Position numbers and translations under genes: made by a program
Origin: Chloroflexota bacterium
GTDB taxonomy: Bacteria; Chloroflexota; Dehalococcoidia; DSTF01; JACRBR01
Length of the DNA: 46,514 nt
Assembly (NCBI GenBank): GCA_028872875.1
Contig: JAGWOC010000020.1
Location: 1 to 46,514, forward strand
Reading direction: 5' to 3'
In this document: positions 3,964 through 15,560 of the stretch, one piece after another
Layout of the letters: every line of letters begins with the position of its first letter
How positions within the stretch are numbered: the first letter of the stretch is position 1
Notes under the pieces: generated by a model
Database searches by the model: none
What the model was told of the DNA's origin: nothing
Seen by the model: the letters and a program-made list of their open reading frames with translations, nothing else

Positions 3964-3991
3964 TTAAGCAGCGGCCCGCCCCTGCCGACCA
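3964..3991 (+). promoter_or_regulatory. Sigma-28-like promoter of the CAP-domain gene
   Basis: TTAAGCAG, 12 nt, then GCCGACCA. It resembles the FliA/WhiG consensus (TAAA, about 15 nt, GCCGATAA) and the stronger copies before cpaB and the ECF sigma gene. An 8-bp hairpin CCGACCAT-TCAG-ATGGTCGG (3985-4004) overlaps the -10 part and the likely start site, and could be an operator. Confidence 0.45.
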
Positions 3992-4051
3992 TTCAGATGG
4001 TCGGGAAGGGCCACCACGGGCCCCGCGACCGGCGACGGGAGCTCACGTCCG

Positions 4052-4906
4052 ATGCCCCAATTCACGCCTCAGACCCTCCTGCGGCAGCTCGCCCGGCGAC
4101 GCTTCTGGCTGCCCATCGCCGCCGTATTCGCGCTGTCCGTCGCCGGCATGGCCGCGGCATCGATGGTGGCGCCGTCTCCGGCCGGTCAGGCTGCCGTCGC
4201 GCCCACGGCGACGCCCGTGCCGCCGCCGCCGGGGGACGCGTCGGCGCTCGCGTTGCTCGGGCTGCGCCCCCGCTTCGACGCGGCCGACGGCCAGGCGTTC
4301 GCGGAGATCGTGCGCTTCACGCAGATCGCCGCGCTGCCGACGCCGACGGCCGTGCCGCCCACACCGGTACCACCCACAGCCACGCCGGTGCCGCCCGCCC
4401 CGACGCCCGTGCCGGTACGGCCGCTGGCAGCCCCGCCCGCGAGCGCGCCCGCCGCCCCTGCGCCGCCGCCGCCCGCCCTCCCGGCCCTCGATACATCGCC
4501 GATGGACGTGTACGAGCAGGCCCTGTTCGACGACACGAACCGCCGGCGTGAGAGCGTCGGTCTGCCGCCGCTGCGGGACAACCAGTCGCTCGTCGCCATC
4601 GCCCGCATCCGGGCGCGCGACATGGCCGCGAACAACTACTTCGCGCATACCAGCCCGGTGACCGGCGATACCGCCTTCAGCCTGATGGACAAGTACGGCA
4701 TCCCCTACGGCTGGGCGGGCGAGAACCTGGCGAAGAACAACTATCCCATCGACCAGTTCGTGGCCGTCGCCGACAACGCGCTCTGGAACAGTCCGCCGCA
4801 TCACGAGAACATCGTCGGCCCGCACTCCACCGAGATGGGCGTCGGCTTCGCGCAGGACGCCAGCGGCATGAAGTACCTCGCGATCATCTTCACCGGCCCG
4901 GCGTAG
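4052..4906 (+). CDS. Secreted or membrane-anchored CAP-domain (SCP/PR1-like) protein
   Basis: 284 residues. A basic N-terminus is followed by one hydrophobic segment (about 18-38), a signal peptide or membrane anchor. A long Ala/Thr/Pro-rich linker (about 45-150, repeated TPVPP-type units) follows, then a C-terminal CAP domain (about 155-284) with the family motifs HTSP, GENLA and a SPPHHENI helix. CAP-domain proteins are extracellular, and in bacteria their biochemical role is mostly unknown. The linker would span the cell wall. The gene is divergent from the acyl-CoA synthetase gene. It has a GGGAG ribosome-binding site and a sigma-28-like promoter shared with the Tad pilus locus nearby, so co-regulation with pili is plausible. 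Confidence 0.85.
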   Translation: MPQFTPQTLLRQLARRRFWLPIAAVFALSVAGMAAASMVAPSPAGQAAVAPTATPVPPPPGDASALALLGLRPRFDAADGQAFAEIVRFTQIAALPTPTAVPPTPVPPTATPVPPAPTPVPVRPLAAPPASAPAAPAPPPPALPALDTSPMDVYEQALFDDTNRRRESVGLPPLRDNQSLVAIARIRARDMAANNYFAHTSPVTGDTAFSLMDKYGIPYGWAGENLAKNNYPIDQFVAVADNALWNSPPHHENIVGPHSTEMGVGFAQDASGMKYLAIIFTGPA

Positions 4907-5234
4907 CGACGCCACGGCGCACCCGTTGCGTTGCTCCGCCCGCCGCGCCGGCACACGCCGCGCGCCTGCCGATTGAACGACGCCCTGCTCACGGGGCATG
5001 GTGAGGCGTGGGACCATGTGCGCCGGGGCGTGTCGGGCGGGCGCCCTCGCGCATGGACATTCGCGCCCACTCCGAACGCGGGCCTTCAGGCCGCGCGGGT
5101 TGCATGCCGGTCGCCCGATACGGGCCCTTCGTAGCGCGCGGGCTTTTCCCGCACGGCCGTACGGCAGCCCGCGCGGCTGCACGCCGACCGCATATCGTCC
5201 TGCCCGTCCACGTTACGGGGGCTTGAGCAGGCCC
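4907..5234. other. Intergenic spacer between convergent CAP and AAA+ genes
   Basis: 328 bp without a supportable gene. It contains a cluster of short GC-rich stem-loops at 5077-5152 (listed separately) that probably serves as a bidirectional terminator or repeat element. Confidence 0.5.
5077..5152. repeat. Cluster of REP-like stem-loops
   Basis: Three stem-loops lie in tandem: CGCGGGCCTTCAGGCCGCG near 5077-5095, GCCCG-ATA-CGGGC at 5113-5125, and GCGGG-CTTTT-CCCGC at 5138-5152. The first shares the 13-mer CTGAAGGCCCGCG (read on the minus strand) with the hairpin at 42865-42885. Both places are convergent intergenic gaps, as expected of REP-type repeats or terminators. Confidence 0.5.
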
Positions 5235-6668
5235 TTACGCCGCCTGCGTGCCGTTCCGGTGCTCGGCGGGCGATGCGCTCGGCAAGCCCAACTGTGACAC
5301 GAAATACGACTCGCACGCCGCGTCGAGGTGGCGGCGCGTGAAGGCGGGACTCTCGCCATGGTAGACGCAGATATCCATCATGAGGTCGGTGATATCGCGC
5401 GGGTGGCTGCCCTTGAAGCCCCGTCCCGTCCGCGTGTAGTAGGTGTCGATCAGGTACAGCGCCGCTTCGGTATCCAGCGGGATCTCCCGCTGCTGGCAGA
5501 CGCGCGCCAGGATCTCCAGGAACTGCTCCCGCGTCGGGTCGGGGATGTGGATCTTGTGGCGGATGCGCCGGAAGAAGGCCTCGTCGCCCAGTTGTGACGG
5601 CTCCAGGTTCGTCGAGAAGATGAGCAGCACGTCGAACGGGACTTCCAGCGTGTCCCCGGTGTGCAACGAAAGGTGGTCGACGCGCTCCTCCATCGGCACG
5701 ATCCAGCGGTTGAGCAGCTCCTTGGGCTGGATCATCTGCCGCCCGAAGTCGTCGACGATGAGGATGCCGCTGTTCGCCTTCCACTGCAGGGGCGCGATGT
5801 AGAACTGTGACTGTGGCGAGTAGCGCAGCTCCAGCTCCTTCAGCGTCAGCTCGCCGCCGGCGGTGATCATCGGCCGCCGCGCCACCACCCAGCGCCGGTC
5901 GCGGCGGCGCTCGTTGCCCGGCATCGTCGCCTCGCTCGCGCGCCGCTCGAGTTGCTGGTCCGCCGGGATCTCCTGGTGGACGCGCGGGTCGTACACTTTG
6001 ATGATCGTGCCGTTGAGCTCGACCGCGTACGGGATGAGCGCCTCGCCGGGGAGCATCCGGCCGATCGCCGCGGTGATCGTGCTCTTGCCGTTGCCGGAGC
6101 CTCCGTACAGGAGCATCGATCGTCCGGAGTTGACGGCCGGGCCGAGTGCCTCCGGTACCCGGTGGTCGAGCACAAGGTGCGAGACGGCGGCCTCGACCGC
6201 CGCCGGCGACACCCGCATTGTCACGATGGACTGCCGCCGCAACACGCCGAGGTACTCCTCGAACGTCACCGGCGCCGGACCGATGTACTGGTTGCGGTTG
6301 AGCGCCTCTTCGGCCTTCTCGAGCCCCTTGCTGGACAGCGAGTACTGATAGAGCTGCTCGCCCATGCCCGAGCTGCCCACGACCTCGGCGAGCTGCTGTT
6401 GCTTGAGGAACTGCAGCACCTCGTCGATGACCGGGAACGCGAGCGCGAGCTGCGTGGCGATGCTTCGGGCCGCGGGCCGGCCGGCGAAGTAGATCGACTT
6501 GATCACGAGGTCGAGCACGAGCGAAAAGTCGAGGCCCGTCTCCTCGACGGTCTGCGGCTGCGGTACGAACGGTGCGGCGTGCAACTCGGCGCTGGCGCTG
6601 GCGTTGCCGCGGTCCGGCTCACCCGACGCGAACCGCTGCGTGCTGCCTGCCGTCGCCTCGATGGTCAT
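5235..6668 (-). CDS. Winged-helix AAA+ ATPase associated with the Tad/vWA locus
   Basis: 477 residues. A winged-helix-like N-terminal region (about 45-125) is followed by an AAA+ module: Walker A GGSGNGKST (189-197), Walker B ILIVDD (302-307), sensor-1 IFSTN (350-354) and an arginine-rich FRRIRHKI (366-373) that probably holds the arginine finger. Such ATPases recur near Tad-type pilus genes in Chloroflexota and other phyla; their exact job is not known to me. The neighbouring divergent gene encodes a membrane vWA protein. AAA+/vWA pairs (MoxR-type) commonly act as chaperones or assembly factors, so a role in building or remodelling the pilus machinery is inferred. The leader is long and structured, with candidate promoters at 6795-6822 and 7178-7206. 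Confidence 0.75.
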   Translation of the reverse strand: MTIEATAGSTQRFASGEPDRGNASASAELHAAPFVPQPQTVEETGLDFSLVLDLVIKSIYFAGRPAARSIATQLALAFPVIDEVLQFLKQQQLAEVVGSSGMGEQLYQYSLSSKGLEKAEEALNRNQYIGPAPVTFEEYLGVLRRQSIVTMRVSPAAVEAAVSHLVLDHRVPEALGPAVNSGRSMLLYGGSGNGKSTITAAIGRMLPGEALIPYAVELNGTIIKVYDPRVHQEIPADQQLERRASEATMPGNERRRDRRWVVARRPMITAGGELTLKELELRYSPQSQFYIAPLQWKANSGILIVDDFGRQMIQPKELLNRWIVPMEERVDHLSLHTGDTLEVPFDVLLIFSTNLEPSQLGDEAFFRRIRHKIHIPDPTREQFLEILARVCQQREIPLDTEAALYLIDTYYTRTGRGFKGSHPRDITDLMMDICVYHGESPAFTRRHLDAACESYFVSQLGLPSASPAEHRNGTQAA

Positions 6669-6794
6669 TCGCGGCTCTCTCGCTCTGACTCGCGAGGACC
6701 CACCGGCCCCCGCCGCTCGCGCGCCACGGTGGCGCCCTGAGGTGATCGCGCGGAGGCCCGGGCGAGCGACGGCTCCCCCGTGCCCTCACCAGAA

Positions 6795-6822
6795 CTATCG
6801 GAAGATGCGGGCCAAAGCTGGA
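6795..6822 (-). promoter_or_regulatory. Weak sigma-28-like promoter candidate for the AAA+ gene
   Basis: Read leftward: TCCAGCTT, 12 nt, TCCGATAG. It has the same layout as the stronger sigma-28-like promoters in this locus but more mismatches in both boxes. It would give a leader of about 115 nt. Confidence 0.25.
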
Positions 6823-7177
6823 GGACCGGGGCGCTCGCAGGCCCGGGCGATGTTACGCGCCGCCGAAGGCGCTGCGGCTGACCCTGGGTGAGGGTGGGAA
6901 ACGGGTTGGGGCCAGGGGACGCCAGCCAGGCCCCGCCTCCTGAAAGCGCGTCCCCTGGGCCCTTGGCCCCTAGATGAACCTTCCGACGCGGCGGAAGGTG
7001 CGGATCCCGCGCGTCTTCGCGCGCGACAACACGACACCGGAATGCGCGCCCCGCGTCCGTGCCGGTCGCTGGACCGCTCATCACGGCCCGTCTCGTGTCG
7101 ATACTACCGTAGTGAAAGCGCGCTCCGCCGTGTTCCACCTTGGCGCACTCCCGCGCGCCCACAGTCGGAGTGGGACG

Positions 7178-7206
7178 ATTCTCCCACGCCCGCGCTGACC
7201 TGTCAA
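7178..7206 (-). promoter_or_regulatory. Sigma-70-like promoter with overlapping inverted repeat (leftward)
   Basis: Read leftward: TTGACA, 17 nt, GAGAAT. A perfect inverted repeat GTGGGA-6 nt-TCCCAC (7170-7187) covers the -10 box, as an operator would. It would drive the AAA+ gene with a leader of about 500 nt that contains the inverted repeats at 6908-6998. Confidence 0.35.
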
Positions 7207-7225
7207 GGGGTTCCGATGGGGAAAG

Positions 7226-7253
7226 TTTACGGCCTGAATCAGCCCGCCGAAGA
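7226..7253 (+). promoter_or_regulatory. Weak sigma-28-like promoter candidate for the vWA-FHA gene
   Basis: TTTACGGC, 12 nt, GCCGAAGA. The -10 part matches 6 of 8 consensus bases, the -35 part poorly. The position, about 45 nt before the start codon, is suitable. Confidence 0.3.
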
Positions 7254-7295
7254 AGTTTTTTCGGGCGCCGCAGGCAGCTACACGGGTACAAGCGC

Positions 7296-9182
7296 ATGAT
7301 CGCCACCCTGCGGCGGCTCCTGCCCGCGCTCGCGGTCGGCGCGGCCCTCCTCGCCGGCGTCGCCTCTGCACAGGATGCCTCGCTGACGCTGCAAGTCGTG
7401 AGCGTCACCGATGCGGGCTATCCGAAGGCCCAGGCCGTCGTGACGGTCGAGGACACGGCGAGCACCAGCTCGCCGGCGCTGACGCCTGACAGCGTCGCCG
7501 TCACGCTGAACGGTGCCCCGGCGAAGGTGCTGGCCACCCAGCTCGCATCGAGCCAGACGACGCCGCTCGATGTGCTGTTCCTGGTCGATGTCAGCGGCAG
7601 CATGGCCGGACAACCGCTGACGCTCGTGAAGGGCGCCGCGACCGCGTTCATCGCTCAACTCGCCCCGCAGGACCGCGTCGCGGTGATCGCCTTCAGTGAC
7701 AGGGTGCACGTGCTCCAGGACTACACGGCGGATCACGCCGCCGCGTCCGCGGTGATCGACCGCCTGCAGGCGTCCGGCAACACGGCGCTTTATGAGGCGA
7801 CCGCAGGCGCGGCACTCAAGGCGGCGACATCGAAGGCAAGCCGCCGCGCCATCATCCTGCTCAGCGACGGCGCGGATTACGGCTCCTCCGGCACGGTCTC
7901 GCGACAGCAGGCGATCGACGCGGCCGGCAAGGTCGGGGTGCCGTTCTTCGCCATCGGCGAGGGTACCGACATTGACCGCGCCTACCTGCAGCAGCTCGCT
8001 GCGGCCTCGAATGGACGCTACCTGGAGGCACCGGATCCGAGGCAGCTCGGCGACCTGTACGCCAGCATCGCGCGCCTGCTCCGCAGCCAGTACGTGATCA
8101 CGTTCGACGCCTCGGGCGTGCATGCCGCCGGCGACGTGCCAGTGACGGTGACGGTGCACAACGGCGCCCGCAGCGCGACCGGGAGCGCGTCCTATCACGC
8201 GCCACCGCCGCCGCCGGCCACGGTGTCGGTCGATGGCGTCCAGCCCGGCGAATCGCTGACCTCGCGGCGCACCGTCACCGCGCAGGTCGGGGGCGGCCAG
8301 GCCGTCTCGCGCGTCACCTTCCAGGTCGATGGCAAGACCGTCGCCGAAGCGACGTCACCACCCTACACGTATACGTACGACCCGGCCGCGTTCGGCGCCG
8401 GCGCCCATGAGCTTTCGGTCACCGCACAGGCAGCGAGTGGCCCGGTCACCTCGAAGGTCTCCTTCCTGTCCACACCGCCCGCGCGGGCGGCTGGCGGCGG
8501 GGGCGTAGACCCGCTGCTCCTCGTCGCCGCCGTCGTCGTGGCCATCCTGCTGGCGGGCGGGGTCCTCTTCCTGGCGCTGCGCAGGCGCCGGCGGGAAGAG
8601 ACGCCCCCACCGGTCGATGTCGCCTCGCTGCGTACCGTGCCAGCGCTTCCGCCCGAGGCCGCGCCAGTGGCACCGGAACCGGAGCCCGCATGGGCGCCCA
8701 TCGCCGAGCCGCGGGGCCTGCTGATCTCTCGCACCGGCGATGACCTCGGGAACGAGTACGTCATCGGCGGCAGCCCGGTGAGCATTGGCTCGGGCGAGCG
8801 GTGCGCGGTGCGCATCGCCGACCGCGGCCTCTCGGCGGTCGAGGCGCGCGTCTGGGTGCGTGACGGCCAGTTGATGCTGCACCGCATGATGAGCCTGAAC
8901 GCGATCGCCAACGAGGGCGTGACCGGCGGCTGGTCGATCCTCGAGCCGGGCGACACGTTCCAGCTTGGTCCGCACACCTTCGAGTTCCGCCTGTTGCCGG
9001 TCCCGGCACCCGAACGCGATCCCTCCGACATCCCGAACGTGCTGCGGGATCCGGACGAGCCGCCGCGGGCCCCCGGTTCCGGCTTCACCGCCGCACCCGA
9101 ACCGGCGCGTCTGCGCCTCCTGGAACTGATGCCGAAGAACGACGTCAATACCCCGCCGGACCGGGACGAGCGCGCGAGCTGA
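7296..9182 (+). CDS. Membrane vWA-domain protein with cytoplasmic FHA-like domain
   Basis: 628 residues from the ATG at 7296, which gives a clear signal peptide (cleavage near ASA-QD, residue 26). Order: vWA domain (about 91-265) with the MIDAS motif DVSGS at 98-102; a beta-rich Ig-like region (about 305-395); a transmembrane helix at about 405-428 followed by an Arg stop-transfer; a Pro-rich linker; an FHA-like domain at about 474-566; and a disordered tail. The vWA part should be outside the cell and the FHA part inside. In the FHA fold the usual phosphothreonine-contact residues look changed: the IGR arginine is Ser (SIGSGERC) and the SxxH histidine is Glu (SAVEA), so phosphopeptide binding is doubtful. 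It is divergent from the AAA+ ATPase and upstream of the tad genes, which suggests a sensor or assembly factor for the pilus. Confidence 0.85.
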   Translation: MIATLRRLLPALAVGAALLAGVASAQDASLTLQVVSVTDAGYPKAQAVVTVEDTASTSSPALTPDSVAVTLNGAPAKVLATQLASSQTTPLDVLFLVDVSGSMAGQPLTLVKGAATAFIAQLAPQDRVAVIAFSDRVHVLQDYTADHAAASAVIDRLQASGNTALYEATAGAALKAATSKASRRAIILLSDGADYGSSGTVSRQQAIDAAGKVGVPFFAIGEGTDIDRAYLQQLAAASNGRYLEAPDPRQLGDLYASIARLLRSQYVITFDASGVHAAGDVPVTVTVHNGARSATGSASYHAPPPPPATVSVDGVQPGESLTSRRTVTAQVGGGQAVSRVTFQVDGKTVAEATSPPYTYTYDPAAFGAGAHELSVTAQAASGPVTSKVSFLSTPPARAAGGGGVDPLLLVAAVVVAILLAGGVLFLALRRRRREETPPPVDVASLRTVPALPPEAAPVAPEPEPAWAPIAEPRGLLISRTGDDLGNEYVIGGSPVSIGSGERCAVRIADRGLSAVEARVWVRDGQLMLHRMMSLNAIANEGVTGGWSILEPGDTFQLGPHTFEFRLLPVPAPERDPSDIPNVLRDPDEPPRAPGSGFTAAPEPARLRLLELMPKNDVNTPPDRDERAS

Positions 9183-9184
9183 CC

Positions 9185-9238
9185 GCCGGCCCGGGCGCCG
9201 GCGGCGATGGCGGTGATTGCTGGCCGGCTTGTCCGGCC
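9185..9238. terminator. Tandem GC hairpins after the vWA-FHA gene
   Basis: A GCCGGC-CCGGGC-GCCGGC palindrome (9185-9202) and a GGCCGG-CTTGT-CCGGCC hairpin (9222-9238) directly follow the stop codon. There is no U-tract, so termination is only suggested. Confidence 0.3.
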
Positions 9239-9279
9239 GCCGTCGCAAGCCGCAGTGCCGTCCAGGCACGCCGTACCCC

Positions 9280-9307
9280 TCAAGCGCCGCCCTCCTCCTG
9301 CCGATGT
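9280..9307 (+). promoter_or_regulatory. Sigma-28-like promoter of the ECF sigma gene
   Basis: TCAAGCGC, 12 nt, GCCGATGT. The -35 part shares AAGCGC with the cpaB promoter, and the -10 part shares GCCGAT. It lies about 90 nt before the start codon at 9398. Confidence 0.5.
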
Positions 9308-9397
9308 TCATTGGGACGTAAGGGAATGCCCTGTCAGGAACCGCAGGATCCCCTGCTCCCGTCGATGTGCGCCGCCGACTGTTGGAGAGGGTCCCGC

Positions 9398-9973
9398 ATG
9401 GTCAGCCTGGGTGCGCCCGCCCCGCGTCCCAACGACGACACGCCCCTCGTCCTGCGCGCCATCCAGCGCGATGAGGAGGCGTTCGCGGAGCTGTACGAGC
9501 GCCACATCGTGCGGGTCTATCGTCACATCTATTACATGGTCGGGAACGCCGCGGAGGCTGAGGACCTGGCGTCGCAGACCTTTCTGCGCGCGTGGGAGGC
9601 GATTGAGCGCTACCAGGTGCGCGGTGCGCCCTTCGTCTCCTGGCTTCTCCGCATCGCGCACAACCTCGGCGTCAGCCACCTGCGGTCGAAGCGGGAGTCG
9701 TCGCAGCTTCACGACGGGATCGTCGACGACACGATGCGGCGCGACCCGGAATCGGCCTATCAGCAGACCGCCGAGGAGGAGTTGGTCAGGGAAGCGATCC
9801 TGCGGCTCCGCGACGAGCAGCGCCAGGTGATCATTCTGCGCTTCATCGAGGATCTAGATTACCGGGAAGTGGCCGAGATTATCGGTAAGAGTGTCGCGGC
9901 GATCCGCGTCATTCAGCACCGCGCGCTCAACGCCTTGCGCAAGCAGATGAAGCTCCTGGACCCGGCGGTCTGA
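9398..9973 (+). CDS. ECF-type RNA polymerase sigma factor
   Basis: 191 residues with only the two core sigma-70 regions: region 2 (about 25-75, DEEAFAELYERH...EDLASQTFLRAW) and region 4 (about 130-185, LRDEQRQVIILRFIEDLDYREVAEIIG with its helix-turn-helix). Extracytoplasmic-function sigma factors direct polymerase to a small regulon. The start at 9398 is chosen for GGAGAGG just upstream; the frame runs on without a better start. No anti-sigma factor gene adjoins it. Its place between the vWA-FHA gene and cpaB makes the pilus locus its likely target or partner in regulation. The promoters found here look sigma-28-like rather than the usual ECF GGAAC/CGTC type. Confidence 0.88.
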   Translation: MVSLGAPAPRPNDDTPLVLRAIQRDEEAFAELYERHIVRVYRHIYYMVGNAAEAEDLASQTFLRAWEAIERYQVRGAPFVSWLLRIAHNLGVSHLRSKRESSQLHDGIVDDTMRRDPESAYQQTAEEELVREAILRLRDEQRQVIILRFIEDLDYREVAEIIGKSVAAIRVIQHRALNALRKQMKLLDPAV

Positions 9974-10045
9974 GGGCGACGGGCGGGAGCGCCTGTGGAG
10001 CAGGTCGGGGGGCAGGGGACAGTCCTGGCATCGTGGGAGTTGGTG

Positions 10046-10072
10046 GCCGGGAGCCGTAAAGCGCGTCCCGGC
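10046..10072. other. Inverted repeat at the cpaB promoter
   Basis: GCCGGGA (10046-10052) and TCCCGGC (10066-10072) flank the -35 box of the cpaB promoter. It could be an operator or a terminator for the sigma gene transcript. Confidence 0.35.
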
Positions 10073-10083
10073 AGGGCCGATAC
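10057..10083 (+). promoter_or_regulatory. Sigma-28 (FliA/WhiG)-like promoter of the tad operon
   Basis: TAAA (10057-10060), exactly 15 nt, then GCCGATAC (10076-10083). This matches the FliA/WhiG consensus TAAA-N15-GCCGATAA at 11 of 12 bases with ideal spacing. It lies about 55 nt before the cpaB start codon. Confidence 0.65.
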
Positions 10084-10137: not shown

Positions 10138-11010
10138 ATGGCACGATCAGTCGCGGGTGGCGTCTCGCCGAGTAGGTTGAACAGGAAGTTCCTCGTCGTG
10201 GCGGTGTTGCTCGCCGTCCTCAGCGCGGTGCTCGTCTACGCCAAGATCTCCGCCAAGAGCGGGACGACCACGGTCAGCTCGGGCACCGGCACCCAGGCCG
10301 TCGTCGTCGCCAAGACCGCCATCCAGCCGCGCACGGTCGTCACGGCCGACCAACTGGTGCTGAAGAGCATCTCGGCCAGCGCCGTCATCGGCGGCTCGTT
10401 CAGCAACATCGCCGAGGTCGTGGGCCGGACGGCCAAGTACCCCATCCAGGCGAACGAGCAGCTCACCGCGAGCAACGTGATCGATACGAGCAAGCCGGTC
10501 TCCGGCTCGGCCCTGTCGTTCGTCATCCCCGCGGGCAAGCGGGCCATGTCGATCCAGGCCTCCCAGGTGAGTAACGCTGGCGGCCTGATCCTGCCCGGTG
10601 ACTTCGTGGACATCATCTGGACCTGCTGCAGCGGCAAGGCGATCATCGCCAAGACGCTCCTGCACAACGTCCAGGTGGCCGCGGTCGCGCAGACGATCGT
10701 GGACTCCGGTCCCGTGACCAGCGCCAGCACGACACCCGCCGCGGGCGGAAGCTCGACGGCGCCCGTCGCGGCCGGCGCGGCGAAGCCCGACCCCGGTGCC
10801 CAGACGGTGACGCTGCTGCTGACGCCGCAGGAGGCCGAGCAAGTGTTCCTGGCGGAGCAGAACGGCACGTTCCGCATGGACCTGCGGGGCATCAGCGACA
10901 CCAACACGACCGACCCGGGGGTCGTCAACCTGTTGAACATCCTGCCGCCCTCCGCGCTCGCGGGTATCCCCGACGTGCTCAAGCCGGATGGCTACAAGCC
11001 GGGCCAGTAA
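10138..11010 (+). CDS. cpaB: Flp pilus assembly protein CpaB/RcpC
   Basis: 290 residues. A single N-terminal membrane segment (about 18-36) is followed by a SAF domain (about 50-115, TQAVVVAKTAIQPRTVVTAD) and the CpaB C-terminal domain (VIPAGKRAMSIQAS...GLILPGDFVDIIWTC). A Ser/Thr/Ala/Pro linker lies near 195-225. In diderms CpaB/RcpC works with the secretin; here it probably sits outside the single membrane and interacts with the cell wall or the pilus base. The start at 10138 is preceded by a purine-rich GGGGGAA. It is the first gene of the tad operon and follows the sigma-28-like promoter. Confidence 0.88.
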   Translation: MARSVAGGVSPSRLNRKFLVVAVLLAVLSAVLVYAKISAKSGTTTVSSGTGTQAVVVAKTAIQPRTVVTADQLVLKSISASAVIGGSFSNIAEVVGRTAKYPIQANEQLTASNVIDTSKPVSGSALSFVIPAGKRAMSIQASQVSNAGGLILPGDFVDIIWTCCSGKAIIAKTLLHNVQVAAVAQTIVDSGPVTSASTTPAAGGSSTAPVAAGAAKPDPGAQTVTLLLTPQEAEQVFLAEQNGTFRMDLRGISDTNTTDPGVVNLLNILPPSALAGIPDVLKPDGYKPGQ

Positions 11011-11085: not shown

Positions 11086-12279
11086 ATGGCGCGAAACCCT
11101 GAGATCGTCACCGTCGACCCGGACCTCGGCACGAGGGCCGAGACGAAGCGCGCCGCGCAGATCGCCCACTTCACGGTCGTCGGCGAGGCCGGGTACGGGG
11201 TCGAGGCGGTGACGGTCGCGAAGGAGCACACGCCGGACGTCTTCCTCGTGTCGTTCGAGGAGCCGGTCGCGCTTGCCCTCCAGACCATCGAGTCGCTGGC
11301 CGACGCGGCTCCGGGCGCGCCGACCATCGTCTACTCGTCGCTGGCCGACGCGAACTCCGTGCGCCGGGCGATGGTCGCCGGGGCGCGCGACTACATCATC
11401 AAGCCGCTCAAGCCGGAGGACCTCAGCCGCGCCGTCTACGGCGTGCTCGAGCAGGAGGAGCGCAAGCGCCTGCGCGCCGACGGCCAGGTGGCCGACACGG
11501 CGGCGCGCGGCACCGTCATCACCGTCTTCGGCGCCAAGGGAGGCATCGGCAAGACCACGATCTCCACCAACCTGGCGACGACACTCGCCAAGATCACCGG
11601 CGCCAGCGTCTGCCTGCTCGATATGGACACGCGCTTCGGCGACGTCGCGATCATGATGGACATCGCCGTCGAGGCGAGCATCGCCGACGTGGCGCGCCAC
11701 CTCGACACGCTGGATCGCGACAAGATCCGCGACTACCTCGTCAAGCACCACAGCGGCGTCTCGATCCTGCCGGCGCCGCTGCACCCGACCGAGTGGCGCA
11801 ACCTGACGCCGCAGCACATCGAGAAGATCGTCGAGCTGCTGGCGCAGACGCACGACTTCGTCGTCATCGACACCCCCGGCACCTTCAACGAGCTGATCGC
11901 GACGACGCTCGAGCTGGCGAACCTGATCCTCCTCGTCACGAGCATGGACATCGCGAGCATCAAGGACACCGCGCTGGCGCTCGAGATGCTGCGCGCCGCC
12001 GGCGTCAGCGAGGACAAGGTCAAGCTCACGATCAACCACTCGACCGCCGCGAACAGCCTTCGCGAGGAAGACGTGTCGCGCGTGCTGGAATACGACGTCT
12101 TCTGGCGCATCCCGCACGACCTGGCGGTGTCCAGCAGCACCCAGCTCGGGCAGCCGATCGTCATCGCGAAGCCCTATGCGCGGGTGTCGCGCTCGATTAT
12201 CGACCTCGCGCACACGCTGACGGGCACCAGGCAGGACAAGCGGGGATTCCTCGACCGGTTCCTCGGCCGGTCGGCCTGA
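11086..12279 (+). CDS. cpaE: Pilus assembly ATPase CpaE/TadZ (pseudo-receiver + ParA/MinD ATPase)
   Basis: 397 residues. The N-terminal 125 residues are a response-regulator-like fold, but the place of the phosphoacceptor Asp reads FLVSFEEP with Ser instead, so it is a pseudo-receiver. The C-terminal part is a ParA/MinD ATPase with deviant Walker A KGGIGKTT (151-158), LLDMDTRFGD, and VVIDTPG. TadZ/CpaE localises the Tad machine to a site in the cell. A strong ribosome-binding site (GGAGA) precedes the ATG. It lies 75 nt after cpaB and 26 nt before cpaF in the same operon. Confidence 0.88.
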   Translation: MARNPEIVTVDPDLGTRAETKRAAQIAHFTVVGEAGYGVEAVTVAKEHTPDVFLVSFEEPVALALQTIESLADAAPGAPTIVYSSLADANSVRRAMVAGARDYIIKPLKPEDLSRAVYGVLEQEERKRLRADGQVADTAARGTVITVFGAKGGIGKTTISTNLATTLAKITGASVCLLDMDTRFGDVAIMMDIAVEASIADVARHLDTLDRDKIRDYLVKHHSGVSILPAPLHPTEWRNLTPQHIEKIVELLAQTHDFVVIDTPGTFNELIATTLELANLILLVTSMDIASIKDTALALEMLRAAGVSEDKVKLTINHSTAANSLREEDVSRVLEYDVFWRIPHDLAVSSSTQLGQPIVIAKPYARVSRSIIDLAHTLTGTRQDKRGFLDRFLGRSA

Positions 12280-12305
12280 ACGGACGCCTGCGGGAGGCAG
12301 AGAAC

Positions 12306-13658
12306 ATGAGTCAGTTTCAGTGGCAGTCGCGCAAAGTGCAGCCCGGCGGGGGCGGGAACTACCAGCGTCCGAACAGCCTGTCGCAGAACGTCGTCGCCCT
12401 GAACGAGCTGAAGTTCACGCTGCACCAGCGGCTGATCGAGGAACTCGACCCGAACAAGCTCGAGGGGCTGGCCAAGGACAAGGCCCGCGAGGCCGTCGAG
12501 CAGGCGGCGCGCACGCTGATCGCGCAGGAGATGCCCGGCATCGTGGGCACGACGCGCGACGAGCTGGTATCCGCCGTGGCCGACGAGGTGCTGGGCTTCG
12601 GTCCGCTCGAACCGCTCCTGCGCGACAACGCGATCTCCGAAGTGATGGTCAACGCGCCGGATACGGTCTTCTATGAGAAGGAAGGGCGCCTCTACCTCAG
12701 CTCGGTGCGCTTTCGCGATGACAACCACATCATGCGGATCGTCGAACGTATCGTCGCACCGCTGGGGCGCCGGGTCGACGAGTCGTCGCCTATGGTGGAC
12801 GCGCGCCTCCCCGACGGCTCGCGCGTCAACGTCATCATCCCGCCCGTGGCGCCGAAGAGCCCGACGATCACCATCCGCAAGTTCCGCACGGACAAGATGA
12901 CGATGAACGACCTCATCGCCACGGGCGCCCTGACGAACGATCTCGCGGAGTTCTTCCGCGCGTCGGTGCAGGCCAAGCTCAGCATCCTCATCTCCGGTGG
13001 CACCGGCTCCGGCAAGACCACCATGCTCAATGCCCTCTCCGCGTTCATCCCGGACACCGAGCGCATCGTCACCATCGAAGACCCCACGGAGCTCCAGCTC
13101 CAGCAGGGCCACGTCGTCACGCTCGAGGCACGCCCCGCGTCGCTCGAAGGCAAGGGCGAGGTGACGCAGCGCGACCTCGTCCGCAACGCCCTGCGCATGC
13201 GCCCCGACCGCATCATCGTCGGCGAGGTGCGCGGCGCGGAGGCCTTCGACATGCTGCAGGCGATGAATACCGGCCACGAGGGATCACTGGGGACCGTGCA
13301 CGCCAACACGCCGCGCGACGCCCTCGCCCGCATCGAGAACATGGTGATGATGGCGGGGTTCGAGCTGCCGGTGAAGGCGATCCGCGAGCAGATGCAGTCG
13401 GCGATCCACCTCGTCATCCAGATCGCCCGCTTCCCGGACGGCACGCGGAAGGTCGTCACGGTGGCCGAAGTCTCCGGCATGGAGGGCCAGATCGTCACGA
13501 TGCAGGATCTGTTCCGCTTCGAGCAGACCGGCGTCGACACGGACGGACGGGTTCTCGGCGAGCTGCGCACGACCGGCATCCGGCCGCGCTTCACCGAGAA
13601 GTTCCAGGTCTCCGGCATCCACCTGCCGCCCGACCTGTTCGCAATCGCGGGGGCCTAG
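12306..13658 (+). CDS. cpaF: Pilus assembly/secretion ATPase CpaF/TadA
   Basis: 450 residues, a type II/IV secretion ATPase of the VirB11/TadA kind: Walker A GGTGSGKTT (231-239), Asp box IEDPTELQLQ (258-267), Walker B RIIVGEVRG (302-310) and His box GHEGSLGTVHAN. It is the hexameric motor that powers extrusion of Flp pili. I used the ATG at 12306, preceded by a GGGAGG-type site and starting just after cpaE ends; the open frame upstream is a shadow of cpaE. The stop codon abuts the tadB start (13659), so the genes are translationally coupled. Confidence 0.93.
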   Translation: MSQFQWQSRKVQPGGGGNYQRPNSLSQNVVALNELKFTLHQRLIEELDPNKLEGLAKDKAREAVEQAARTLIAQEMPGIVGTTRDELVSAVADEVLGFGPLEPLLRDNAISEVMVNAPDTVFYEKEGRLYLSSVRFRDDNHIMRIVERIVAPLGRRVDESSPMVDARLPDGSRVNVIIPPVAPKSPTITIRKFRTDKMTMNDLIATGALTNDLAEFFRASVQAKLSILISGGTGSGKTTMLNALSAFIPDTERIVTIEDPTELQLQQGHVVTLEARPASLEGKGEVTQRDLVRNALRMRPDRIIVGEVRGAEAFDMLQAMNTGHEGSLGTVHANTPRDALARIENMVMMAGFELPVKAIREQMQSAIHLVIQIARFPDGTRKVVTVAEVSGMEGQIVTMQDLFRFEQTGVDTDGRVLGELRTTGIRPRFTEKFQVSGIHLPPDLFAIAGA

Positions 13659-14630
13659 ATGGATCCACTCGCCGCAGTCGCCGCCTTCTCCGTGATGACC
13701 ACGGTCGTGATCGCCATGTTCGCCTTCTGGGGTTCAGCGGTGACGGGCGACGCGAACGTGCGCGGCCGCCTGCAAGGGCTGATGTCCGGCACGTCCGTGA
13801 TCGATGTGTCGACGCCGGGTGCGCTCCGCCAGGCCCCGTCCGGCAGGAGCATCATCCGCAACCTCGTGGGAGTCGAGCTCCGCGAGAAGCTGGCGACCCA
13901 GCTCGAGCGGGCGGACCTCACGCTTCAGCCGGGCGAGTACGTGCTCCTGCGCTTCGGCCTCGCCTTCCTGGGCCTGATCGTCACGGTCTTCCTGATCCAG
14001 GGCACGTTCGGCTACGTCGCGGCGGCGGTAGCCGCCGTCGTCGGCTACAACCTGCCGAAGGTCTACATGACGCGGCGGCGCGACAAGCGTGTCGAGAAGC
14101 TGAACGCCCAGCTCCCCGAGGCGCTGACGATCATCTCGAACGCGCTGAAGGCCGGCTTCGGCCTGCTGCAGGCGCTGAACAGCGCGGCCGACCAGCTCGA
14201 GCACCCGATCGCCACGGAGCTCGGCCGCACGATCCACGAGATGAACATCGGCTCCAGCGCGGAGGAGTCCCTGCTCGCGCTGAGCGAGCGCTCCGGCAGC
14301 TACGACCTCGACATCGTGGTCACCGCCATCCTGGTCCAGCGGACCGTCGGCGGCAATCTCGGCGAAATCCTCGACACGGTTGCCGAGACGATGCGCGACC
14401 GCATCCGCATCCGGGGCGAGATCCGGACGCTGACGTCGCAACAGAAGCTGACGGGCATCGTGATCGGCCTGCTCCCAATCGGCATCGGCGTGCTGTTCCA
14501 GATCATGAGTCCGGGCTACATCAACCCGCTATTCACCACGACGATGGGCAAGATCCTGATCGGCCTGGCGGTCGTGCTCGAGGTGATCGGCGTCCTCGTC
14601 ATCCAGCGCATTCTGAAGATCGAGGTGTAG
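13659..14630 (+). CDS. tadB: Tad pilus inner-membrane platform protein TadB
   Basis: 323 residues with a T2SSF (GspF-like) domain. Hydrophobic segments are at the N-terminus (about 5-25), around 95-140 (two) and at the C-terminus (about 268-320, two). The cytoplasmic part contains LPEALTIISNALKAGFGLLQAL, typical of the TadB/TadC family. It forms the membrane platform with TadC, on which the CpaF ATPase acts. It starts immediately after the cpaF stop and is followed by tadC after 3 nt. Confidence 0.9.
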   Translation: MDPLAAVAAFSVMTTVVIAMFAFWGSAVTGDANVRGRLQGLMSGTSVIDVSTPGALRQAPSGRSIIRNLVGVELREKLATQLERADLTLQPGEYVLLRFGLAFLGLIVTVFLIQGTFGYVAAAVAAVVGYNLPKVYMTRRRDKRVEKLNAQLPEALTIISNALKAGFGLLQALNSAADQLEHPIATELGRTIHEMNIGSSAEESLLALSERSGSYDLDIVVTAILVQRTVGGNLGEILDTVAETMRDRIRIRGEIRTLTSQQKLTGIVIGLLPIGIGVLFQIMSPGYINPLFTTTMGKILIGLAVVLEVIGVLVIQRILKIEV

Positions 14631-14633
14631 CGC

Positions 14634-15560
14634 ATGCCCATCGACCCGCTCGCCCTCCTCGCCGCCGGCCTGATTGCCGCCACCGTCCTGTTCTTCGTGC
14701 TCGGCCTCGCCGCGACGGGCCCAGGAAGCGCACTCGCGCGGCAGCGGCTCGAGGCGCTCAAGCGCGGCGCCGCAGCCGATGAGCCGCCCATCGAGTCGCA
14801 CTCGCTCCAGGCCCGCGTGCTCGCTCCGCTCTTCCAGGGCGGCGTGCGCGCCTTCGGGAGCCTGCTGCCCAAGTCCGTGCTGAGCGGCGTCGAGCGCAAG
14901 CTCGTCATCGCCGGCGAGCCAATGACGATGAACGGCTTCCTGACCATGGTCTTCGTCTCGACGGCGGCATCGAGCGGCTTCGGTATCCTCATCCTCGTCG
15001 CATCGGGGACGGCGTTCTCCATCAAGACGATTGGCATCGTGGCGCTCATCTCCCTGATCGGCCTCTACCTGCCGTTCTGGATCGTCGGCTCGCGCGCGAA
15101 GCAGCGGCAGGCGGCGATCATCAAGAAGCTGCCCGACGCCTTCGACCTGATCACCACCTGCGTCGAAGCGGGCCTCGGCCTCGATGCGGCGCTCTCGCGC
15201 GTGGCGGAGAAGGTCGAAGGCCCCTTTGCGCAGGAGCTGGCGCGCGCGCTCCGTGACATCGCCCTCGGCAAGTCGCGGCGCGATGCGCTCAAGGAACTGG
15301 GCGAGCGCACGGCCGTGCCGGACCTCGTCCAGTTCACGAACGCCGTCATCCAGGCGGAGTCGATGGGCTCGTCGATCGGCGCCGTGCTGCGCGTGCAGGC
15401 GGACCAGCTCCGCGTGCGGCGGCGCCAGCGCGCGGAGGAAGCCGCGTACAAGGCGCCGGTGAAGATGCTCTTCCCGCTCGTGCTGTTCATCTTCCCGACG
15501 CTGTTCATCGTGATCCTTGGCCCGGCCGGCATCACGATCACGCAGAGCTTCCCGAAGTAG
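14634..15560 (+). CDS. tadC: Tad pilus inner-membrane platform protein TadC
   Basis: 308 residues with a T2SSF domain: an N-terminal hydrophobic helix, two helices around 95-145, the LPDAFDLITTCVEAGLGLDAAL motif region, and a C-terminal helix pair with MLFPLVLFIFPTLFIVILGPA. It partners TadB. It is the last gene of the operon before a good intrinsic terminator (15589-15616). No prepilin (flp), prepilin peptidase (tadV/cpaA) or TadE/F-type minor pilin gene follows, so these must lie elsewhere. Confidence 0.9.
   Translation: MPIDPLALLAAGLIAATVLFFVLGLAATGPGSALARQRLEALKRGAAADEPPIESHSLQARVLAPLFQGGVRAFGSLLPKSVLSGVERKLVIAGEPMTMNGFLTMVFVSTAASSGFGILILVASGTAFSIKTIGIVALISLIGLYLPFWIVGSRAKQRQAAIIKKLPDAFDLITTCVEAGLGLDAALSRVAEKVEGPFAQELARALRDIALGKSRRDALKELGERTAVPDLVQFTNAVIQAESMGSSIGAVLRVQADQLRVRRRQRAEEAAYKAPVKMLFPLVLFIFPTLFIVILGPAGITITQSFPK

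Follow-up and report, generated by a model that had tools for sequence, protein, structure and literature searches.

Introduction

A promoter of the flagellar type in front of a Tad pilus operon raises the question of which sigma factor reads it and which other genes it serves. The case studied here lies on a contig of 46,514 nucleotides (C20, called the window throughout) from an uncultured order of Dehalococcoidia. A preliminary description of this DNA had pointed out five sigma-28 (FliA/WhiG)-like strings, all of which are located where it had placed them, and had proposed either a single regulon under a motility-type sigma factor or an adjacent ECF sigma factor with an unusual, sigma-28-like preference.

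Genomes and scoring

The source genome (G000; 3.4 Mb in 234 contigs, 95.5% complete) was compared with relatives named by a GTDB scan, which are metagenome-assembled genomes of Dehalococcoidia and other Chloroflexota. Orthologues of cpaB were taken from 40 relatives, with 17 genomes of the order having the main cpaB, and the 6 to 20 kb surrounding the locus (the neighborhood of the CAP, AAA+, vWA and ECF genes) were read in 16 relatives. Genome-wide motif counts were made by pattern searches with the reversed pattern as the control. For the conservation scores, the weight matrix for each gene was built solely from sites belonging to the other genes (leave-one-gene-out), and the best score in the 300 bp upstream, averaged over orthologues, was compared with 60 dinucleotide shuffles. 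For the two-mismatch matches of three genomes, the downstream DNA was compared between genomes for conserved non-coding pairs. FlhA served as the marker of a flagellum and was scored in 18 genomes of the order and 22 others of the class, and membership in the FliA/WhiG family was judged by the curated TIGR02479 cut-off of 189.6 bits.

Results

The site before cpaB, read as TAAA-N15-GCCGATAC, has the same spacing as the Escherichia coli FliA consensus, TAAAGTTT-N11-GCCGATAA (PMC2859248), and shares with it 11 of the 12 bases of TAAA and GCCGATAA, which bears out the earlier impression of a nearly full FliA/WhiG consensus at ideal spacing. Fifteen of the 17 order genomes carry this site as TMAAGC-N13/14-RCCGATAC or with a one-base departure from it, and it is kept across four families though the spacer and flanks cannot be aligned between families; among the 17, it is weak in G009 and absent from G011. 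No site was found upstream of cpaB outside the order (G024, G032, G034, G037 and G038) or upstream of the second cpaB paralogues. The zero-mismatch form occurred once per genome in the three genomes tested, always before cpaB. With the leave-one-gene-out matrices, no conserved site was found before cpaE, tadB or tadC, which is consistent with the transcription of these genes from the cpaB promoter.

Table 1. Predicted promoters and genes of the Tad locus and its neighbors in the window (z, leave-one-gene-out conservation score, to be read with the caution given in the text)
Feature	Position	Strand	Details
Predicted sigma-28-type promoter of CAP gene, TTAAGC-N14-GCCGACCA	3964..3991	+	z 8.4
CAP-domain protein gene	4052..4906	+	PF00188; orthologues in relatives
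AAA+-type ATPase gene	5235..6668	-	Walker A GSGNGKS in translation, no Pfam match
Predicted sigma-28-type promoter of AAA+ gene, TCCAGC-N14-TCCGATAG, degenerate -35	6795..6822	-	z 10.8
Predicted sigma-28-type promoter of vWA gene, TCATCACGG-N10-GTCGATAC then TACCGTAG	7078..7104	+	z 9.9
Gene with vWA domain and C-terminal FHA-like domain	7296..9182	+	PF00092, PF16697
Predicted sigma-28-type promoter of ECF sigma gene, TCAAGC-N14-GCCGATGT then TCATTGGG	9280..9307	+	Conservation, z 15.7
ECF sigma factor gene, predicted regulon member	9398..9973	+	Nearest BldN family, TIGR02952 below cut-off
Predicted sigma-28-type promoter of Tad assembly operon, TAAAGC-N13-GCCGATAC then CTATACAG	10057..10083	+	Conservation, z 14.9
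cpaB/rcpC, which opens the Tad assembly operon	10138..11010	+	PF16976
Remainder of Tad operon	11086..15560	+	cpaE 11086-12279, cpaF/tadA 12306-13658, tadB 13659-14630, tadC 14634-15560

Measured against the sigma-28 consensus (-35 TAAA and -10 GCCGATAA, 15 to 16 bases apart), the cpaB site belongs to the class with its N15 spacing, and the ECF and CAP sites are weaker matches at N16. The boxes of the AAA+, vWA and CAP sites are degenerate overall, the -35 boxes in particular at vWA and AAA+. Conservation before orthologues upheld four of the five earlier placements (cpaB, ECF, CAP and AAA+) but not the fifth: the string at 7226-7253 was rejected as the vWA site, the conserved element (TCATCAC...GTCGATACTACCGTAG) being the one listed in Table 1, which in most genomes of the family and order lies about 200 bp upstream of vWA. 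The ECF site is kept in all eight family genomes and in further genomes of the order, where the ECF orthologues are present at the locus; its form in the eight is TMAAG-N15-GCCGAT, mostly with TCATTG two bases on. The AAA+ site is kept in all seven family genomes that hold the region, and a like site precedes most of the 10 CAP orthologues examined; the AAA+ orthologues are 57 to 87% identical. In the CAP protein itself, the N-terminal segment is joined to the CAP domain by a long proline-rich linker (window 4340-4480).

The motif had been expected to be rare by chance, and this expectation failed. Genome-wide, TNAAG-N13..15-GCCGA matched 134 times and its reversed control 99 times; for the two-mismatch form the counts were 30 and 34, while the strict THAAGC-N13..14-GCCGAT gave 42 against 22 in the eight family genomes, with 14 of the 42 being the cpaB and ECF sites and the remainder near background. 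Since the loose motif is at background frequency across the genome, an outcome that the preliminary description had named as a refutation, the evidence lies in conservation and not in rarity. Conservation before orthologues, the other check that it had named, is strongly favorable. The control genes scored z values of 0.7 (cpaE), 0.4 (tadB), 1.4 (tadC) and 1.3 (ATP-grasp), and an HD-GYP gene beside one of the sigma factor genes described below (f2), never used in training, reached 8.1; all z values, including those in Table 1, overstate independence, as the genomes are related (G000 and G001 are near-copies), and the training sites were initially chosen as best matches. The reverse strand stayed near the control level except before the ATP-grasp gene, which is divergent from the CAP gene. 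A matrix trained without the genus of the window scored the five sites at 21.2, 17.8, 15.5, 14.6 and 14.5. At the rate expected from a Markov sequence background, about three matches scoring 14 or more per 100 kb, the weaker three would be unconvincing from one genome alone, and it is conservation that carries them.

A search for a FliA/WhiG homologue, as the preliminary description had suggested, returned two such sigma factors. The first, f1 (C176:30168-30845), scores 194.7 bits, above the TIGR02479 cut-off, and has Pfam regions 2, 3 and 4. The second, f2 (C59:58396-59067), scores 183.2 to 183.4 bits, just under the cut-off, and for this reason we term it FliA/WhiG-like only; TIGR02479 is nevertheless its best model, and it is placed beside f1 and flagellar FliA and away from the primary sigma factors. 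Each of the two forms an orthologous clade through the order, separate from flagellar FliA, and the three part at an unresolved fork with long branches. The closest solved structures to f1 and f2 include FliA and WhiG, the top match being 6pfv, listed as an RNA polymerase sigma factor and which we take to be Streptomyces WhiG. Among the f1 and f2 sequences listed, the FliA pattern of region 2.4, RIRGxxxDxxR...PRS, is kept, as are R74, D81, R84 and R91 (E. coli FliA numbering), residues that presumably matter for -10 recognition. Streptomyces development involves both WhiG-type and BldN-type sigma factors, and in that light the pairing here of a BldN-nearest ECF sigma factor with WhiG-type sigma factors is striking.

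A GFO/IDH/MocA-like gene lies directly 3' of f1 (region L150, G000 C176:22000-39000; 7084-8145, minus strand). It adjoins f1 in 14 of 15 relatives and evolves much faster than f1, with about 30% identity across the order; judged only by its position, its product is a possible partner of f1. The RsiG motif E(X)3S(X)2R(X)3Q(X)3D was found in no frame of the f1 and f2 neighborhoods examined.

FliA-type sigma factors are present in 17 of the 18 order genomes, the exception being 72% complete. FlhA was found in none of the 18, so that the flagellum that would mark a flagellar regulon is lacking. Among the 22 other genomes of the class, 5 have both a FliA-type sigma factor and FlhA and 17 have neither. 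Elsewhere in the class, these sigma factors are thus limited to the five genomes with FlhA, whereas the host order keeps them without it, which makes them orphan sigma-28-type factors. The matrix was trained on none of the five flagellated relatives; it also picked flagellin promoters in two of them (G019, 21.0; G038, 18.7) but no clear site at the flagellin genes of the other three.

Beyond the window, the cross-genome comparison yielded conserved non-coding pairs at the pilins, in the f2/HD-GYP gap, at an archaellin and at a DUF5317-like gene. The Flp pilin genes on contig C81 have TACAGG-N13-GCCGAGAC (C81:9769, leftward), with similar sites in G001, G002, G003 and G006, and the gap from f2 to the HD-GYP gene holds a site at C59:58355 (leftward), with sites in this gap in nine genomes (G000-G004, G008, G009, G011 and G012). 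An archaellin gene (PF01917) is preceded by TAAAGC-N13-GCCGACAAT (C179:11230, leftward), and more archaellin sites were found in G001, G002, G006, G009 and G015; most genomes have several archaellins, and the site stands before only some of these genes. Sites were further found at a GGDEF gene near f2 (G000, G001 and G005), at a second HD-GYP gene adjoining the pilins (G003 and G006) and at a LuxR-type regulator beside an archaellin (G008 and G010). In G002 (C46, L291) and G006 (C19, L321), a conserved TCAAG-N14-GCCGATA precedes a hydrophobic peptide of about 30 residues, followed by the DUF5317-like gene, which was named by eye.

Several further matches are recorded here as separate observations. 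On C81 of G000 (L327), a site at 9842 (plus strand) is divergent from the pilin promoter and precedes the gene of a 554-residue membrane protein. On C103 (L153) of G000, a strong TAAGGG-N14-GCCGATAC at 7421-7448 lies before a gene at 7501 for an acidic protein of 113 residues with no Pfam match, and G005 has a similar protein and site in its archaellum region (C17:44423). On G000 C206 (L152), which also carries the second CpaB paralogue, a site scoring 21.1 at position 6440 (minus strand) is followed after 35 bp by the gene of a small membrane protein. A small gene and a PadR-type regulator are preceded in G000 (C214:46708-48734, L271) and G002 (C10, L274) by the conserved AT-rich stretch TATATATAG-TG-CGATAC, which was set aside because it is AT-rich and palindrome-like and its class membership is doubtful; perhaps it is a PadR operator rather than a sigma-28-type promoter. 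The matches L261/L296, L263/L290 and L265/L295 were discarded as uninformative because they lie inside conserved coding sequence.

Discussion

We give a probability of roughly 0.8 to the reading that the five sites are sigma-28 (FliA/WhiG)-class promoters, most likely read by f1 and/or f2, which would drive a surface-appendage and c-di-GMP regulon that includes the ECF sigma factor. The comparisons show the conservation of the sites, the presence and orthology of f1 and f2 and the absence of FlhA, and we infer that f1 or f2 reads the sites, that expression is coordinated and that there is feedback through c-di-GMP. The predicted regulon of Tad assembly, an AAA+/vWA pair and the CAP protein under a motility-type sigma factor, as first proposed, gains support from the conserved sites before the orthologues of all five genes and from the presence of f1 and f2.

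In the mechanism that we propose from these sequence comparisons, f1 and/or f2 would direct RNA polymerase to the five promoters of the window, with transcription of the Tad operon predicted to start at about 10090, and would switch on the Tad assembly operon, the AAA+/vWA satellites, the CAP protein and the ECF sigma factor, the last being a putative regulon member and possibly its second tier. Unlinked targets would be the Flp pilins, at least one archaellin and the GGDEF and HD-GYP enzymes of c-di-GMP synthesis and breakdown. These enzyme targets, and the analogy with Rubrobacter WhiG, suggest that c-di-GMP may both control and be controlled by the regulon. As the order has no flagellum, a flagellar-type control circuit would here be serving other surface machines.

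That the adjacent ECF sigma factor instead reads the sites, regulating its own gene and driving the Tad operon and the rest through an unusual sigma-28-like preference, we consider unlikely. Autoregulation is frequent among ECF sigma factors, and this gene does have a site and, in most of the order genomes in which the locus was read, precedes cpaB; the conservation of the factor across the order is also as broad as that of f1 and f2, so that co-occurrence cannot separate the candidates. However, it is nearest to the BldN family (148 bits against a TIGR02952 cut-off of 206), and the sequence read by Streptomyces BldN, CGTAAC-N16-CGTTGA (PMC2375139), is a different one, while the motif found here is the FliA consensus at its exact spacing in a genome that encodes f1 and f2 of the FliA type. 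The same matrix, moreover, picks the flagellin promoters of two flagellated relatives. A conserved operator for a DNA-binding regulator, in place of a sigma factor promoter, is a still poorer explanation and in our view improbable: the downstream extensions are gene-specific yet conserved (CTATACAG at cpaB and TCATTGGG at ECF) and could be regulator contacts, but there are two boxes at a fixed distance of 15 to 16 bases that both match the FliA consensus, and they keep one orientation, facing the gene, while the reverse strand scores near the control level. Chance matches in a GC-rich genome, for which the loose motif count on a par with its reversed control might speak, are scarcely credible given that the sites persist before orthologues in four families whose spacers have diverged and that z values are 8 to 16 against about 1 for the controls.

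The sigma-28-class reading has partial precedents. In Rubrobacter radiotolerans, a WhiG regulon is under a (RsiG)2-(c-di-GMP)2-WhiG switch, with type IV pili and c-di-GMP enzymes as proposed targets, and RsiG is reported to be limited to Actinobacteria (PMC8325347). The order studied here is like this system in having a non-flagellar sigma factor of the FliA/WhiG family, predicted pilus and c-di-GMP enzyme targets and TAAA/GCCGATAA promoters; unlike it, Rubrobacter belongs to the Actinobacteria and has a type IV pilus cluster and not Tad, no archaellin and control by RsiG. In Bdellovibrio, FliA drives the Tad operon, with the promoter fusions tested in E. coli (PMC5430801), and a Tad operon under a FliA-type sigma factor is what we predict here, although Bdellovibrio FliA also drives flagellin and attack-phase genes and the order of the window has no flagellum. 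The predicted targets also differ from those of E. coli FliA, which are flagellar and chemotaxis genes. Archaella have been described in flagellum-less Chloroflexota (Litorilinea aerophila and SAR202), including Dehalococcoidia, and archaella and flagella are mutually exclusive in the phylum (PMC12488501); the present order is similar in having archaellum genes in Chloroflexota without a flagellum. In the archaellum papers searched, neither a promoter nor a sigma factor is given for this filament, and a literature search of partial coverage returned no report joining a FliA/WhiG-type sigma factor, Tad and the archaellum in Chloroflexota. The archaellin link and the Chloroflexota setting therefore appear new, while the FliA-Tad and WhiG-pilus arrangements were already known.

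An ancestral flagellum that was then lost in Dehalococcoidia has been proposed (PMC10284905). We tentatively suggest, as a possibility that we do not yet favor, that the flagellum was lost and the two sigma-28-type factors were kept, controlling the archaellum (a motor filament of archaeal derivation), Tad pili and c-di-GMP enzymes, with a bacterial flagellar-type sigma factor transcribing archaellin; f1 and f2 may then share out the promoters according to their spacers of 15 or 16 bases.

The promoter sequences are short and precise and could be assayed in E. coli, with no need to grow the host in culture. Together with Rubrobacter, the order suggests a recurring unit of a FliA/WhiG-type sigma factor, pili and c-di-GMP enzymes. 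If our reading is true, a flagellar-type sigma circuit can survive the loss of the flagellum and be put to work on surface machines unrelated to it, one of them acquired from Archaea, which touches on the wider question of how motility systems gained by transfer come under bacterial regulation.
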